DNA of 37,500 bases from a bacterium ADurb.Bin212 (GTDB lineage Bacteria > Patescibacteriota > UBA1384 > XYA2-FULL-43-10). Below, piece after piece: positions 23 through 8,556 of the stretch; position 1 is the stretch's first letter; each line of letters starts with the position of its first letter. Location: the NCBI GenBank assembly GCA_002070055.1, contig MWCM01000013.1, positions 1-37,500 of the forward strand. Reading direction: 5' to 3'. Under the pieces are notes generated by a model. It was not told the origin of the DNA, searched no databases, and worked only from the letters and a program-made list of their open reading frames with translations. The translations under genes and the position numbers were made by a program.

Positions 23-568
23 TTATTTGGCAGGTGAATTGCTTAGTGATTCTTTCCAGCGGCTACTTAAATTATTTAATTTGGTGGCGATTGAATAATC
101 GATAATATAGTGGTCTTTTTTGATAATAGCTCCACCGATAATATCTTTGTCTATTTTAATATCAACAATGACTCTCTTTCCAATATTTTTTGAAATATTT
201 TCAGCCAAGAGGTAAATATCTTCTGGCTTTAGTTCAATAGCACAGGTAATTTCCACAAAATCAATTGTTTTTGACTCAGCAATAAATTCCTTGGCAAACA
301 CAGAAAGGTGAGCAGGATCAAAAAGCCAGAGATTGTCCTCTTCTATCATAGACTGCAAAAAACTCTTTAAATCTTTTGAGGTAATTCGGTTCACCTCTTT
401 GATGGCTAAGCTTTTTAAATGTTTGGCATCGGGTGTTTCTGATGCAACTGATTTATAGCTAATTCTGTCTTTGAGGTATTCAATATCAAAAACAATCTGG
501 TTAAGATCGCTTCTTTTGGAGATTCTGGATATCAACTCATTTACTAATCTTTTTACCTCTGATATCAT
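23..568 (-). CDS. atpH: F-type ATP synthase subunit delta
   Basis: 181 aa, the usual delta/OSCP length. This subunit sits on top of F1 and joins it to the peripheral stalk made by subunit b. The N-terminal two thirds are divergent and helical. The C-terminal part is recognisable: a 'kDIIGGAII' stretch near residues 141-149 followed by 'IIDYSIATKLNNL' matches the family signature of an I-G-G turn and then D-x-S-(I/V)-xxxL. The ATG lies two bases after the b stop codon, with a GAGGG Shine-Dalgarno inside the end of b, so translation is probably coupled. It is the third gene of the c-b-delta block. The next gene, expected to be alpha, starts beyond the left edge: no start codon is visible in bases 1-22. 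Family assignment is fairly secure; stoichiometry and function in this odd complex are not. Confidence 0.88.
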   Translation of the reverse strand: MISEVKRLVNELISRISKRSDLNQIVFDIEYLKDRISYKSVASETPDAKHLKSLAIKEVNRITSKDLKSFLQSMIEEDNLWLFDPAHLSVFAKEFIAESKTIDFVEITCAIELKPEDIYLLAENISKNIGKRVIVDIKIDKDIIGGAIIKKDHYIIDYSIATKLNNLSSRWKESLSNSPAK

Positions 569-570
569 TT

Positions 571-1065
571 TTAGTCGCCCTCAACTTCCTGCAGCGCCTG
601 TTCGATTAATTCACGATGATCTGAATAATTTAGTGATTTTGAGATGACTTTTTTTGTAACACCCATTACCAAATCCACCATTTTGCCTTCAATTTCAGCC
701 TTTTGCTCGGCGACGTAACGATCGGCTTTTTCTCTGGCCTCTTTCTCTATCTCTTTGGCTCTTTTCTCAGTTTTTTTAACAATCTCCTCTGCCTCTTTAA
801 GATATTTTGTTGGGTCAACAACATCTTTTTGTGACAGCATTTTTTTGTGTTTTGTTTCCAGCCTGGCCAGGATAGACTTAATTCTTTCAATCTCCGCTTT
901 TTCTTTGGCTTTGCGTTGGGCTATCTGCACCATATAGCGTTCTCTGATCTCCAGAAACTTCAAATCTGCCATTTTGTGGAGCTTCTTTTCGCGTGAATTG
1001 AAATAAAAGCCAAGACCAAACAGGCAGATGACTGTTATAATTATATTAACTAAACTTAACGACAT
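571..1065 (-). CDS. atpF: F-type ATP synthase subunit b (peripheral stalk)
   Basis: 164 aa. One N-terminal membrane helix (about residues 5-22) is followed by a long, highly charged helix rich in Lys, Glu and Ala that runs to about residue 145. It ends in the family-typical 'KVISKSL..SDHRELIEQAL' segment that binds delta. Role: holds F1 still against the membrane sector. An upstream in-frame start at 1107 exists inside the preceding gene, but I chose the ATG at 1065. The sequence CGGAGGGG, one of the strongest Shine-Dalgarno sites in the window, lies directly after the c-gene stop and 3-6 bases before this ATG. Length fits the family. It sits between the c-like fusion and delta, the standard c-b-delta order. 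Confidence 0.9.
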   Translation of the reverse strand: MSLSLVNIIITVICLFGLGFYFNSREKKLHKMADLKFLEIRERYMVQIAQRKAKEKAEIERIKSILARLETKHKKMLSQKDVVDPTKYLKEAEEIVKKTEKRAKEIEKEAREKADRYVAEQKAEIEGKMVDLVMGVTKKVISKSLNYSDHRELIEQALQEVEGD

Positions 1066-1075
1066 TTCCCCTCCG

Positions 1076-3110
<2,035 letters not shown>

Positions 3111-4340
3111 TTATCCCTGCCAATAAAACATCATAATTGAAAAGTCTGCCAAATTTATAATGCTGTCGTTGTTTATATCGGCAGACTTTTCGTTAGTGCC
3201 CCAGTAATAAACTAAAATCGAGAAATCGGCAAGATTTACTGTGGTGTCGCAATTCAAGTCGCCTTTGCTCACATTACAAACGGGCTCTTCTCCAGGATCT
3301 GTATCACCGTTAGAAACCCTAAAAAAGAGAGTATTAGAAAACAAGCTTTGAGTTCCCAACAGATCTTGAACCAAAGAGTAAAGTTTGTGATCTCCCAACT
3401 CCATATCGATTGTGTCGGATAGTAGATACTCGTAATCACCATTTTCATCAACAGTGACCTCAAAGCTATTTACCGGTGGTTCGGTCATAATAATTGTTTT
3501 GTAACCAGGTGTGCCCCTGCCGGTTATCTGAATAGCCTCTCCTGGAGCGATCTGATTATTATCAATCTCTATTGTTGGTGGCAAAATGATGTCGCTTACT
3601 GTGGTTAACTCGTAAGCTCTGGTAAAAACCTCAATCACGGTTGGTGGGGTGGTTCTATCGTATATATCATTGCCACTTATTGTTATGGTGTGCATGGTTT
3701 CTGGCATGCCGGGGAATATCTGAGCAAAACGACCGTTATCGTCTGCTACAGTGGTGCCAATTGTGGTGGTGCCGGCGGCAAAACTTACAAACATGCCAGG
3801 TGAGCCATAGCCGATAATTCTTAGCATGCCGATATCGGCTTCAATGGCTGCTGACACAACAACCGAGCCAGTGGTCTTTGTGGCAATCACTCTAGTTTCG
3901 TTGCGTAAATTCAAACCGTCAGGGTCATCTGTTATGCGCAGATAAACATCAAAGGCGTCGGGATGGGGAGGGTTATTTGCTGTTATGCCGTATAAACTTA
4001 TGGTTGCCCCGGGGTTAAAAGAGATACCAGTAATTCTGACAAATGTTGCAATGGTTGTAACTACTGGAGTTCCGGTATAATCGCCGGTAATCTGGGTTGG
4101 TTCGGTGGGGTTTGTAAAAGCTGGGAGATCAATAAATATAAAATCATCAGGTTGAACCGGTAAAGAGCTGACCGGAAGAGTAAACCTGATGTTATGAGTA
4201 GCTATTGCCCCGAGGACATTTGTATTGATTGTGTCTCTGGCATTATCCAGCCCACCAACAGCTTTGACACTAACAAAATAAACTGAAAATAAAGACAGAA
4301 TTACAAAAAGGGCTATCTTTTTATAAAATTTATATCGCAA
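3111..4340 (-). CDS. Secreted Ig-like protein with C-terminal type I dockerin
   Basis: 409 aa. Signal peptide at about residues 8-27, then a beta-rich body of several Ig-like segments (for example around 160-240 and 250-345). The C-terminal dockerin (about 354-409) has two F-hand calcium loops: D361-x-N363-x-D365...D372 and D388-x-N390-x-D392...D399, each followed by 'LADFSI'. Dockerins bind cohesin modules in a calcium-dependent way, and two cohesin-fold proteins are encoded upstream in the same gene run. The start is TTG at 4340: an in-frame stop lies immediately upstream and GAGGGG sits ten bases before it. An out-of-frame ATG at 4350 yields only six codons. The gap to the c-fusion gene is 28 bases. 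No catalytic domain was recognised, so it is probably structural or adhesive. Confidence 0.82.
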   Translation of the reverse strand: MRYKFYKKIALFVILSLFSVYFVSVKAVGGLDNARDTINTNVLGAIATHNIRFTLPVSSLPVQPDDFIFIDLPAFTNPTEPTQITGDYTGTPVVTTIATFVRITGISFNPGATISLYGITANNPPHPDAFDVYLRITDDPDGLNLRNETRVIATKTTGSVVVSAAIEADIGMLRIIGYGSPGMFVSFAAGTTTIGTTVADDNGRFAQIFPGMPETMHTITISGNDIYDRTTPPTVIEVFTRAYELTTVSDIILPPTIEIDNNQIAPGEAIQITGRGTPGYKTIIMTEPPVNSFEVTVDENGDYEYLLSDTIDMELGDHKLYSLVQDLLGTQSLFSNTLFFRVSNGDTDPGEEPVCNVSKGDLNCDTTVNLADFSILVYYWGTNEKSADINNDSIINLADFSIMMFYWQG

Positions 4341-4387
4341 TTAAAACCATCCCCTCACTTAACAGGTAAATCACCTGACGGCCAGTG

Positions 4388-5326
4388 CTATTTTGTTAGG
4401 TTGTGCAGAATCCTCTTGACTTGTTTTCTTCCGAAAATCAAGATAATTATTAGAACAAAAATCCCGCCCGCAACATAGCCTAAGTACTTAGGGAATACCC
4501 AAAATGAAACAGACTCTGACAGGGGCTTGTTTTGCTGACCATATGTGGCAACTAAAGTGGCGGTATAACGGCTAGCCAGTGATGCGCTAAATTCCCATCT
4601 GGTATCCATTTTTCTGATTGCGTCCGGTAAGACGTTTAGACCATTCAATGGAATCTCTGTTACTTTTTGACCAAATATATTGGTAATAACAATTGTGCCT
4701 TTGGGGCGAATATGATTATTACCGGCATTTTTGACTCTTAGTTCAAAATTTACCGGACTTTTTTCGTAATAATTTTCATTAGTGGTAAAGGATTCGACGC
4801 TGGCTTCTTCTTTTACATTGCCCGAAACACGGAGCAATATTAAAGAACCGACACGGCTGGCAACAGATGCACCACTACCTTCGGTTTTTGTTTCGCCTCC
4901 CATCTTTACTAGCACAGAGCAGTAGTGTCCGCCTGGTTCAGCGTCTTTTGGGACATTTATAGAAAAAGCAACCTCTCTTTCGGCGCCAGGTTTTAGAGAG
5001 AAAGAAGATGGAGTAGGAGTAACCCATTGTGCCAAAGAGTAGGTGGTGCTTGGTTGACTGTCATCTATTAAGTTTACTTGACCTTCTTCTCCAACTGCCT
5101 GAAAGTCTTCCACCATGATTGTATAACTTGTTTCTACTGCGGAGTCGTTTCTGACACGAATCTTGTCGGTGATACTTTCACCGGGGTTTGCGTAGAGCTC
5201 AAACGACGGTGGGATAACACTAATCGTCCTTCCTGCGGTATCCTGAGCCTTGCTGGTAGTAGTGTTTGTTAGTGAAATAAACGCAATAAAAGCAACGGCA
5301 ACAGCGCAGGTAATCCTTTTTAGCAT
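4388..5326 (-). CDS. DUF916-like (WxL-interacting type) membrane-anchored surface protein
   Basis: 312 aa from the chosen ATG. Signal peptide at residues 1-26 ends near 'SKAQD'. Two Ig-like beta domains follow. The first begins 'SVIPPSFELYANPGESITDKI', with 'PGAEREVAFSINVPKDAEPGGHY' later on, the pattern of DUF916-type domains found at the surface of Gram-positive cells. A single membrane helix near the C-terminus (about 282-300) is followed by a short basic tail, giving an outside-facing protein. The reading frame extends 27 codons upstream, but the ATG at 5326 has AAAGGAG seven bases before it and starts a proper signal peptide. A consensus promoter lies just upstream, so this gene probably leads the transcript that also contains dockerin, c-fusion, b and delta. 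No enzymatic motif was seen. Confidence 0.75.
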   Translation of the reverse strand: MLKRITCAVAVAFIAFISLTNTTTSKAQDTAGRTISVIPPSFELYANPGESITDKIRVRNDSAVETSYTIMVEDFQAVGEEGQVNLIDDSQPSTTYSLAQWVTPTPSSFSLKPGAEREVAFSINVPKDAEPGGHYCSVLVKMGGETKTEGSGASVASRVGSLILLRVSGNVKEEASVESFTTNENYYEKSPVNFELRVKNAGNNHIRPKGTIVITNIFGQKVTEIPLNGLNVLPDAIRKMDTRWEFSASLASRYTATLVATYGQQNKPLSESVSFWVFPKYLGYVAGGIFVLIIILIFGRKQVKRILHNLTK

Positions 5327-5377
5327 AGATTCTCCTTTTTCAAAATGCATTTTATACTCTTGATTATAATCATAATT

Positions 5378-5407
5378 ATAATACCTATATTTTTTGTATA
5401 TTGTCAA
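5378..5407 (-). promoter_or_regulatory. Sigma-70 type promoter for DUF916, dockerin, c-fusion, b and delta
   Basis: On the minus strand, a perfect TTGACA (5402-5407) is separated by 18 bases from TATTAT (5378-5383). TATAAT also occurs three bases further on, with a longer spacer. The predicted start lies near 5371, about 45 bases before the ATG at 5326. This is one of the best promoter matches in the window. Confidence 0.65.
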
Positions 5408-5441
5408 TCAAAAATTGAATTTTGTTTTCAGTTCAACATAA

Positions 5442-6437
5442 TTAAACCTTTTTCTCCACGTTTTCCATAGTTAATTCACTCTTAACCTCTTTAATATCTT
5501 GAAGGTATTGAGCCTTACCATCTGCTCCTCTTTGTTCGACGATATCAAGCTTGTTTTCCAAAACGGCTAATGCACCTAGCTGCTTGTTCATAATTCTTTC
5601 AATTGCCAAGTGGCGTTTCTTTTCGTTTAAGTATAGCTTTAAACCTAAAATAATTATTATCGCCAGAAGAATTGATGTGGGAAGTATGCTGGACCAAAGA
5701 ATGCTGTTGGCTCCAAAAATACCCTTAACTGTGGCGTTATTTAAAATTGCTTCCGCTTTTTGCAACGGCTCTTCGGGGTCTGAACCTTTTCTACCATTAA
5801 CTTGAGCGATTGAGCCAAAAGAGGTGCTGTTGCCAGGCGAAACATCGGATTGTGAAGTTGGAGTAGTGTTGCTTGGGGCAACAGTTTCTTGCAGTGTGGG
5901 TGGGTAGAGAGTAATTGTTTCTACTTCCGGTTGCACCGGATCAACGTCTTCTGCGCCGCTGGTTAAAACATTAATTGTGAGAGAATTTGAAGTAAAGCCT
6001 TCAATGGTTTGACCATTGAACATAATCCAGATGTCTTTTAGAGTAACGGCTGTTGTACCTTCGGTGCGACCTTTAAATCGTAAAGTCGTCACAAGTCCAT
6101 CCGCTCCGACATATCCTCCTTGGGTATTGGCACAATCTATTCTGGTGAAAGACTGAACGGCACACAGCGGAACCACACTTCCGGCATGATTGAGTTGTAA
6201 TCCCTCTAGGGTTTCGGTGGAAAAATCTATACCAAAACCAATTGCGTTAATTCTTTCGCCTTCCGTGTTGATTCGAACAGTAATTTCGGTTGTTTGATCT
6301 TTGTTAATGTAAGCAGATTCAGCAGACAAAGTTAAAGACTTCTCTGCGTGAGCGGAATCAGACATACAAAAAAATACCAATAATGCTACCGGCCAGAGCA
6401 AAAAGGGGAATAAAATATTACTTTGTACCCTCCTCAT
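5442..6437 (-). CDS. Membrane-anchored cohesin-fold protein with cytoplasmic coiled coil
   Basis: 331 aa. Signal peptide ends near A31. A cohesin-type beta domain spans about 34-157: 'INAIGFGIDFSTETLEGLQL' and 'GLVTTLRFKGRTEGTTAVTL' follow the alternating strand pattern of cohesin/CBM-like domains. Cys92 and Cys102 could form a disulfide. A Pro/Ser/Thr-rich spacer (160-245) reaches a membrane helix at 246-268. The last 60 residues are charged and helical, probably a cytoplasmic coiled coil. The protein could therefore pass a contact from outside to inside. The ATG overlaps the preceding gene's stop (ATGA), so the two cohesin genes are translationally coupled. The dockerin protein two genes downstream is the obvious candidate partner. 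Cohesin identity rests on pattern recognition, not a profile search. Confidence 0.72.
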   Translation of the reverse strand: MRRVQSNILFPFLLWPVALLVFFCMSDSAHAEKSLTLSAESAYINKDQTTEITVRINTEGERINAIGFGIDFSTETLEGLQLNHAGSVVPLCAVQSFTRIDCANTQGGYVGADGLVTTLRFKGRTEGTTAVTLKDIWIMFNGQTIEGFTSNSLTINVLTSGAEDVDPVQPEVETITLYPPTLQETVAPSNTTPTSQSDVSPGNSTSFGSIAQVNGRKGSDPEEPLQKAEAILNNATVKGIFGANSILWSSILPTSILLAIIIILGLKLYLNEKKRHLAIERIMNKQLGALAVLENKLDIVEQRGADGKAQYLQDIKEVKSELTMENVEKKV

Positions 6438-6994
6438 AAACCTGCTTTTATTTTTATCTCTTTGTTGGGGAGATCCCTTAATAAATTGGTGCCTTTGCCG
6501 TCGTTAGCCAAGACCATACTTTCTCCAGAAAGAGACAAAGTAGTGTTTTTAATAGCTTTAGGATAAAACTCAATTACCTGGACTTTGTTGGTGCCATTAA
6601 AACCGGGATATGGAGTCCCGCATGAAAGCTTAACGTAGCCACTAATATTACTGAAGACATTTTCAGGGTAGAACTTGCAGAAAGAATTTGTGGTGTCTGT
6701 TTTTACCACCTCGAGAACATTGCTGTCGAAAATCAAGTAGCTTTGAACAGCATTAACATAGTTATTTTGTGTGTTTAGGCGTATTTCAACCAGAAAGTTT
6801 TTTCCAACTCCGTCTATCTCGTCTGGAGCTTCAATTGTTAAGGCCGAAACCGGCTCAATACCCCTCAATTTATTTAAATCAACTCTAATTTTGGGATTGG
6901 GCTTAAAAAACAGAACATAAATCAAAATAACCACAAAAATGGTTGCTAATATTACGAACTCCTTGGTTTTGATTATTTGAAGAGTCTTTTTCAA
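6434..6994 (-). CDS. Cohesin-fold protein with N-terminal membrane anchor
   Basis: 186 aa. A short basic N-terminus is followed by an uncleaved membrane helix at about 13-30, then an outside-facing beta domain (50-185). The segments 'NYVNAVQSYLIFDSNVLEVV' and 'VQVIEFYPKAIKNTTLSLSG' match the cohesin strand pattern and align in order with the neighbouring cohesin protein. Two cysteines (106 and 125) lie in the same region as the Cys pair of that neighbour, suggesting duplication. The start is TTG at 6994 with only a weak upstream purine stretch; a promoter lies 36-64 bases upstream. It is the first gene of the minus-strand run. There is no coiled coil or long spacer, so the cohesin is held close to the membrane. 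Confidence 0.65.
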   Translation of the reverse strand: MKKTLQIIKTKEFVILATIFVVILIYVLFFKPNPKIRVDLNKLRGIEPVSALTIEAPDEIDGVGKNFLVEIRLNTQNNYVNAVQSYLIFDSNVLEVVKTDTTNSFCKFYPENVFSNISGYVKLSCGTPYPGFNGTNKVQVIEFYPKAIKNTTLSLSGESMVLANDGKGTNLLRDLPNKEIKIKAGL

Positions 6995-7107: not shown

Positions 7108-8556
7108 ATGAGGAAAATTTATATAATTTCTGTTTGTTTACTAGCTGCAGCGGCGGCCTATTATTACATCTTCTTCTTTGTTAATAGAAGCGTTTTTGAT
7201 GGTCTCTTGCAACAAGCCTCCGAAAAAGGAGGGGATTTTTCGCAAAAAATAATTAATAACGAGGATAATTCAATTTCTTATTTAAGAGAGAACTTCTGTT
7301 CGTATCGGTCTAATTCAAAAATCATCGATGAGGTCGAGGATATAAAGAATATCAATCTTAACGGGAATGCGGAATCTTTAGAGTTGAGTTCGGAGAACTA
7401 TGCAGGCAAGAATTCAATAAATTTTAGTTTGAGTAACCAGACAAAGGGCGACAAGGCAATTATTGAAAGAAAGTCTTTGTCTTTGGACCTGTCAAGATGG
7501 AAAAAAGATGGAATTTTCTCTGCCTGGGCAAAATTTGAAAAACCGGAAGATATTAGTTCTGTAACACTGATTTTGGAATCGAAAAATGGAGCAAAACGGA
7601 TCTATAACGAATTACAAAACGTAAACATTAACGAGGAAAATAAAATTCGTGTGAATGACCCCCATCCCGACTATTCGTTGCCGGAAGGAGAGAATCAATA
7701 TTGGCAGGATTTTCAGTTGGTTTACGGCTGGAACTATCTCTTTTGGCGAGGAGACCAATATTCAGATTCAGGAGATTTTTTGGTGAATCAAGTTGTGGCT
7801 TATCAACTAAACTTTAATTTGAGACAGGATTATGCTTCAGGCAAAAAAATTCACGTTGATAATGTTCGGGTAAGCGACGGAGTCCAAAAGAGCAACAATC
7901 CTTTGGGCGGCAACTGGTATGCACCAAACGGTATGCCCCAGTATGGAGTTTTTGATTTGTCAGGAGAGCAGGAGTGTAATTTACGCTTGATTAATGTGCG
8001 TCGTGAACAATATCCTAGCAACGGCGACCATGCCAGAATTTTGAGTAACTATACTACCCCACAAAATTTTGCTTTTAAAACCAGATTTAAAATTATTGAC
8101 CCGGCACCGGGCTATGTTAATGAAAATAACTCATACTTAAGGTTTCAGTATAACTTTGATGATGAATATGACCCAGGGCACGATTGGTTCGGAGCATTTA
8201 TCTCCTTTGAATACAAAAATTTTGGCTTAATTAGTGTTGAGCCAGTGGAACGCTATACTAAGCAACGCCAAGAGCCGGAAAACTTTCCTTTTTCTGCAAG
8301 AAAGCACTTTGTCTTTGACAAAGATAAAGAGTATCAAATAGAGTTGGTGGTTAGGTCAAACAAGGCTCAGGCTCACCTGTATCAGGTCTATTCGAATAAC
8401 AAACTGAAAAAAATTTCCAGTGTTTCTTATGATTTTAAGCGCCCCAGAAGCGATATTGGCCGGCCTTTTTCTATCGAAACAACAGGGTCATATCACATGT
8501 TAATTAAGGAGATAGAGATACTTAATTTGGAGCTAATTGAAAAGGATATCAAATGA
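7108..8556 (+). CDS. Membrane-anchored extracytoplasmic protein with beta-sandwich domains
   Basis: 482 aa; I do not recognise a named family. Residues 5-25 form a signal anchor. The exported remainder looks like two concanavalin/carbohydrate-binding-type beta sandwiches. The first is about 85-255, with 'SLSLDLSRWKKDGIFSAWAK' and ending 'KIHVDNVRVSD', a phrase typical of such folds. The second is about 265-478, with 'FAFKTRFKI', 'WFGAFISFEY' and 'YHMLIKEIEILNL'. No catalytic residues can be assigned. A ligand-binding or adhesive role is possible; sugar binding is a guess from fold. The last codons overlap the Nudix gene start by ATGA. The promoter places the ATG at the very 5' end of the mRNA. 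Confidence 0.7.
   Translation: MRKIYIISVCLLAAAAAYYYIFFFVNRSVFDGLLQQASEKGGDFSQKIINNEDNSISYLRENFCSYRSNSKIIDEVEDIKNINLNGNAESLELSSENYAGKNSINFSLSNQTKGDKAIIERKSLSLDLSRWKKDGIFSAWAKFEKPEDISSVTLILESKNGAKRIYNELQNVNINEENKIRVNDPHPDYSLPEGENQYWQDFQLVYGWNYLFWRGDQYSDSGDFLVNQVVAYQLNFNLRQDYASGKKIHVDNVRVSDGVQKSNNPLGGNWYAPNGMPQYGVFDLSGEQECNLRLINVRREQYPSNGDHARILSNYTTPQNFAFKTRFKIIDPAPGYVNENNSYLRFQYNFDDEYDPGHDWFGAFISFEYKNFGLISVEPVERYTKQRQEPENFPFSARKHFVFDKDKEYQIELVVRSNKAQAHLYQVYSNNKLKKISSVSYDFKRPRSDIGRPFSIETTGSYHMLIKEIEILNLELIEKDIK

Follow-up and report, generated by a model that had tools for sequence, protein, structure and literature searches.

Why would genes for subunits of a rotary ATPase lie in one run with genes for cohesins and a dockerin? 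Rotary ATPases are known as ion machines. The organism in question belongs to the Patescibacteria, which are ultrasmall and whose cultivated members grow on other bacteria. The window (the whole stretch of 37,500 nucleotides that was analysed) is the entire contig C13 of its 1.22-Mb genome. A preliminary description proposed that two membrane-anchored cohesin-fold proteins and a secreted dockerin protein dock a surface protein near the ATPase, a proposal consistent with the folds, with the membrane topology, and with the location of these genes in one operon. The answer favored here, with a probability of roughly 0.6 and from sequence analysis, is that the operon encodes an alternative rotary ATPase for the cell surface, driven by ATP and equipped with an ion-free rotor that would itself carry ectodomains.

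To begin with the genes themselves, all of the open reading frames first described are present at their positions on the minus strand, and they form a single run in which neighbors overlap or are separated by a few tens of bases (Table 1). What had been called subunit c in this run is in fact only the C-terminal domain, in degenerate form, of an Ig-like protein of 668 aa, referred to here as cX. The first account of the run was also incomplete. It passed over a gene for a WxLIP-type surface protein (PF06030; E=1e-6; score 29.2 bits, where the cut-off is 27.3) and the absence of subunit a from the operon genes read. The b-like protein, for which a Pfam search returned nothing above cut-off, is assigned from its position, its membrane helix, and its alignment with relatives and with ordinary b. 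As had been stated, Pfam detects no cellulase or other catalytic domain in the operon. The contig ends 22 bases beyond the delta gene, truncating the operon there. Directly upstream and divergent (7108-8556) is a gene for a protein of 482 aa that starts with a membrane helix and that Pfam places in no clear family. A DNA search for plasmids gave zero matches.

Table 1. Genes of the cX operon in the window, in order of transcription
Feature	Position	Strand	Characteristics
Cohesin-fold protein 1, 186 aa (predicted)	6434..6994	-	N-terminal membrane helix, predicted cohesin domain outside
Cohesin-fold protein 2, 331 aa (probable)	5442..6437	-	Signal peptide, probable cohesin domain, membrane helix ~243-272, cytoplasmic helix (hydropathy)
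WxLIP-type anchored protein	4388..5407, start probably ATG 5326	-	Signal peptide, WxLIP_PGBD, C-terminal membrane helix
Dockerin protein, 409 aa (secreted, Ig-like; two-loop type I dockerin at the C terminus)	3111..4340	-	PF00404
cX, 668 aa	1076..3082	-	Signal peptide; ectodomain of Ig-like domains, Big_1 among them; subunit-c hairpin at the C terminus, ~598-666
b-like peripheral stalk protein	571..1107, start probably ATG 1065	-	N-terminal membrane helix, long charged helix
Subunit delta (OSCP)	23..568	-	PF00213, E=1.4e-16

What kind of protein is cX? It matches PF02369 (E=1e-11) and PF00137 (E=3.9e-7), both over cut-off. The hairpin keeps the RNP loop, while the ion-binding acid of helix 2 is replaced by leucine. 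This loss is not peculiar to the window: in all 50 fused c genes read, the canonical position lacks an acid, compared with a glutamate in all 27 ordinary c rows (24 distinct genes). Where ordinary c has NPE or NPD, GRNPLA or GRNPMA is a further hallmark of cX. In subunit c both ends of the hairpin are outside and the loop is inside. The signal-like N terminus found in 46 of 47 full-length cX proteins agrees with that outside location. With no acid and no subunit a, ion translocation by the known mechanism is therefore not expected. In the Ig-type cX the glycine motif by which c rings pack is plain, but it is mostly lost in a small type described below, so ring assembly is least certain in the latter. 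A profile of the small type finds only ATP synthase c chains in the PDB (best E=0.0025); its ectodomain has no solid relative in Pfam or the PDB.

Is the adjoining ATPase simply the ordinary ATP synthase of the cell? It is not, as the ordinary operon is complete (a, c, b, delta, alpha, gamma, beta, and epsilon) on another contig, C11. This contig holds the genome's copy of subunit a, of which there is exactly one in each of the four genomes first examined. In a tree of beta subunits, made by a quick method and containing some long branches, the ordinary enzymes, two from other phyla included, form one clade with support of 100, apart from every beta linked to a cX gene.

Where, then, is the rest of the truncated operon? 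In a Berkelbacteria genome (G054, VFKW01000035.1) the whole run is contiguous: cohesin 1, cohesin 2, WxLIP, dockerin, cX, b, and delta are followed by alpha, gamma, beta, and epsilon. An alpha-gamma-beta-epsilon set also lies at the extreme end of contig C3 (L010) of the window's genome. Because the G054 operon is intact and its subunits match those on C3 (68% identity for alpha, 61% for gamma, and 86% for beta), C3 most likely carries the remainder of the window operon. A third set is found on contig C37 (L011, 1-5018), where alpha (cut), gamma, beta, and epsilon are followed by a gene for a TPR protein and by one, cut by the contig end, for a secreted protein with NHL repeats. The beta subunit of C37 groups with that of genome G061, an NHL-type system, with support of 100 in the beta tree, and since the G061 system has an NHL-Ig-cX protein, the cX of the C37 set is probably in an assembly gap. 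No sequence overlap joining the window contig to C3 or C37 was found. Alongside its ordinary enzyme, the genome thus carries two alternative F1 sets. No orthologue was found in close relatives within the same family and order. A search of GTDB 220 with a gamma profile found two orthologues only, both in Berkelbacteria. Two further matches in that search were rejected as orthologues, being 20-24% identical and grouped with the ordinary enzymes by the beta tree.

How widespread is the system? Searches with cX profiles find a fused, acid-less c hairpin in at least about 48 of 380 sampled Patescibacteria genomes, or about 1 in 8. Genomes were counted when the c hairpin ended a long open frame, or a frame broken by a contig end or frameshift, and were tallied by reading the listing. 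The first profile was the whole Ig-type protein, and the second was built from acid-less hairpins and so favors such sequences; the open-frame criterion is independent of this bias. Long frames with c matches that are tandem V-type proteolipids (e.g., G209, L094) were excluded. Three types of ectodomain occur among the cX proteins: Ig-like (the window, G054, G020, G019, G189, G111, and G378), NHL propeller (G073, G092 by sequence kinship, and G061, with a 2589-aa NHL-Ig-cX protein), and a small type of about 150 aa, which is the majority.

The surrounding genes are conserved as well. The order cX, b-like, delta, alpha, gamma, beta, in which the b-like protein starts with a membrane helix, recurs in about 40 loci and is seldom departed from. 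In alignments, beta retains both its Walker A lysine and its GER glutamate in 44 of 44 rows, and alpha its arginine finger in 45 of 45, one row in each being an ordinary control. Losses of catalytic residues suggested by strict motif patterns proved false, as the alignment shows the residues to be present. What about the ordinary enzyme in these genomes? Ordinary c was not found in at least 23 of the cX genomes, and no subunit a was found in G073, G388, and G269. These three are 92-97% complete, which makes any one absence weak evidence, although the same pattern is seen in many members of family f61.

Several individual loci have features of their own. In G020 (contig C81, L053 8807-13876) the cX operon adjoins genes whose translations resemble haem O synthase and cytochrome oxidase, which, if correctly read, would be unusual for the phylum. 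A 2817-aa protein is encoded directly before a small-type cX in L093 (166-8619) and has an odd combination of matches, to Peptidase_S74 (endosialidase-chaperone) and, at its N terminus, to a MerR-like helix-turn-helix. Finally, the cX and beta genes of G111 are split into several frames (L085, 8742-10655 and 14428-15818), reflecting either sequencing error or decay.

If cX and its F1 partners are the conserved part, what are the cohesin and dockerin proteins? The dockerin is the most secure. As had been claimed, the 409-aa protein carries a two-loop dockerin (PF00404, residues 359-404; E=8.7e-7; score 29.5 bits, where the cut-off is 22.9). Its two calcium loops (D-x-N/S-x-D ... D) are conserved in the orthologues of four genomes, its closest relatives in the PDB are cellulosomal dockerins, and it is the one dockerin in the whole genome to score above cut-off. 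The cohesins are less readily seen by profile searches. Cohesin 1 matches the Pfam cohesin model below cut-off (E=0.019), and cohesin 2 has no sequence match in Pfam. A whole-genome scan with the Pfam cohesin model gave no match and missed even cohesin 1, making that scan too insensitive, and a PDB sequence search with cohesin profiles gave no useful match. Structure prediction is more informative. For the AlphaFold model of cohesin 1 (pLDDT 68), the best Foldseek matches are cohesins (2vo8; E=4e-7; probability 1.0), and all but one of the first 25 are structures of a cohesin, free or in a complex; by this model, the 186-aa protein is assigned the cohesin fold. For the weak model of cohesin 2 (pLDDT 50), each of the 15 best fold matches is a cohesin (E=1.5e-3 to 7e-3; probability 1.0), and the 331-aa protein probably has the cohesin fold as well. 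Of the two cohesin-fold proteins in the preliminary description, one is thus upheld and the other is probable. Both have orthologues in G054, 59% identical for cohesin 1 and 34% for cohesin 2. Contig C3 (L010, 867-2651) encodes in addition a membrane protein of 594 aa whose C-terminal module resembles a cohesin (PF00963; E=0.0065, below cut-off), possibly a further dockerin partner.

Among the seven Ig-type loci read, the cohesin pair adjoins the cX ATPase in two (the window's genome and G054) and a dockerin lies beside cX in four (those two, G189, and G111). WxLIP orthologues are present in G054, G189, and G111. In G019 and G020, there is no cohesin, dockerin, or WxLIP gene beside cX. Because cohesins and dockerin adjoin cX only in some Ig-type loci, gene context marks the pair as an accessory, lineage-specific addition to a wider machine rather than part of its core.

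How might such a machine work? In the proposed surface motor, F1 (alpha, beta, gamma, and epsilon) would hydrolyze ATP and thereby turn gamma. Gamma and epsilon would grip a ring of cX hairpins by the RNP loop that these retain, and the ring would in turn rotate, or twist under load, the Ig-like arms outside the membrane. It would pump no ions, because the acid is missing from cX and subunit a from the operon. The b-like protein and delta would act as the stator, keeping F1 still. In this lineage, the secreted dockerin protein would bind the membrane-anchored cohesins, extending the surface layer. Cohesin 2, by means of its cytoplasmic helix, could sit on the stator side and link the static part to the dockerin protein. 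The likely task would be mechanical: gripping, moving along, or remodelling the contact with a host cell or surface. In this reading the surface protein would not merely be docked near an ATPase, as first supposed; the rotor subunit, with no ion-binding acid, is itself the surface protein. Several points count against this reading. The window and C3 are joined by synteny, the packing motif of c rings is mostly lost in the small-type cX, a crown of large arms would need to operate inside the cell wall or S-layer or else across it, and cohesins, to judge from the relatives' loci, are not retained beside cX in most of them.

Could the same genes serve a machine that does not rotate? An F1-like ATPase might instead power a surface adhesin or enzyme through a conformational stroke of limited extent, a mechanism put forward for mycoplasma MIB-MIP, with ATP hydrolysis shifting the cX hairpins so that they reset or release partners such as the cohesin-dockerin pair. 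Precedent exists in the mycoplasma Type 3 F1-like X0 ATPase, on which MIB-MIP depends for its function and with which it is co-purified upon cross-linking (PMC12994834). The layout there is the same, with F1-like genes beside a gene for a signal-peptide protein that has two C-terminal membrane helices. By this analogy a limited stroke deserves consideration, although it seems unlikely: a full stator (b and delta) and rotor (gamma and a c-like hairpin) are kept here, and rotation is favored for that reason. The cX ring might also be an inert, static hub displaying many copies of an adhesin, F1 serving only in its assembly or regulation. A ring is well suited to multivalent display, and Ig, NHL, and cohesin-dockerin modules are typical binding modules, but such a hub would not need the catalytic residues of alpha and beta, which are conserved in all loci, even those whose genomes lack the ordinary enzyme. 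The static hub is accordingly judged improbable.

Two other explanations place cX in more familiar company. F1 relatives do serve export, and some cX clusters adjoin genes for surface-like proteins of 2408-2817 aa, so could the ATPase export large surface proteins as its cargo, much as the flagellar and type III export ATPases do? The retention of gamma, delta, and a b-like stalk speaks against it, as do the ordinary signal sequences of the window's surface proteins and the absence of an export-gate gene from the loci read, and this role is quite improbable. Alternatively, cX could be a minor subunit within ordinary c rings, tethering surface proteins to the ordinary ATP synthase. The F1-contacting loop is conserved in cX, and the ordinary enzyme is also present in most Ig-type genomes. 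However, cX always comes with a diverged F1, b, and delta of its own. In many cX genomes ordinary c was not detected, and in some subunit a was not found either; moreover, an acid-less c within a ring would block proton transport. Such a minor subunit is very improbable indeed.

Why does the surface rotor matter? The system is common in Patescibacteria, and ordinary c was not found in many of the genomes that have it, so genes annotated as "ATP synthase" in such genomes are no proof of energy coupling. No account of the cX system in Patescibacteria was found in the open-access literature, subscription papers and preprints being mostly outside the scope of that search. An F1 motor tied to surface work is known from mycoplasma gliding and from the MIB-MIP motors (PMC11864180, PMC12994834).

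How does the system compare with others already described? With the cellulosome, it shares the cohesin fold and a two-loop type I dockerin with calcium ligands. It differs in having no catalytic enzymes and no multi-cohesin scaffoldin; here, single cohesins on membrane anchors are encoded in an ATPase operon. With the H+ or Na+ F1Fo ATP synthase, it shares alpha, beta, gamma, epsilon, delta, a b-like protein, a c-like RNP hairpin, and the catalytic residues, but the cX operon has no subunit a, and its c has lost the ion-binding acid and is fused to a secreted ectodomain. The N-ATPase (alternate F1F0) resembles the cX system in being an additional F-type set, laterally distinct from the ordinary enzyme. 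It pumps ions, however, and has both subunit a and a complete c, and the subunits here fall below the cut-offs of the N-ATPase models TIGR03324 and TIGR03305 (alpha, 494.2 against 750.5; beta, 530.4 against 752).

The closest known kind are the Type 2 (gliding G1-ATPase) and Type 3 (MIB-MIP) F1-like X0 ATPases of mycoplasmas, which power gliding and are required for MIB-MIP surface function, respectively (PMC11864180, PMC12994834). As here, each is a second F1-like set besides the ordinary ATP synthase and is tied to surface proteins. The mycoplasma proteins MMCAP2_0577 and MMOB1650 have a signal peptide, a large ectodomain, and two C-terminal membrane helices (PMC12994834), an arrangement shared by cX, as compared by published layout only. 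The beta subunit of Type 2 has an N-terminal extension, and so do those of two NHL-type loci here (L088 4488-6428 and L133 491-2563), with 190-235 extra N-terminal residues. There are clear differences, too. The mycoplasma clusters encode a 12-helix protein and no recognized b or c (PMC3369863); that protein is absent from the intact G054 operon. Those who described Types 2 and 3 found no similarity to a, b, or c, whereas in cX the two helices are recognizably subunit c, and b and delta are kept. The F1 subunits here also score below the mycoplasma NCBIfam cut-offs (MMOB1660, 361.6 against 600; MSC_0619, 270.1 against 520; MSC_0618, 435.6 against 570; MMOB1670, 438.5 against 850). By these cut-offs, the cX system would be an F1-like ATPase working at the cell surface outside the mycoplasma families.

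The cX genes suggest, but do not show, that the mycoplasma two-helix protein may be a derivative of c. In the gliding and MIB-MIP motors, the path by which force crosses the membrane has been called unclear (PMC11864180, PMC12994834). The cX genes would offer a concrete answer, in that the rotor subunit itself bears the surface part. There is perhaps an even chance that Patescibacteria possess a widespread class of rotary ATPase in which a c ring relieved of ion transport has become a turning rotor with adhesive ectodomains, and that the membrane part of the mycoplasma motors is its relative or its parallel.
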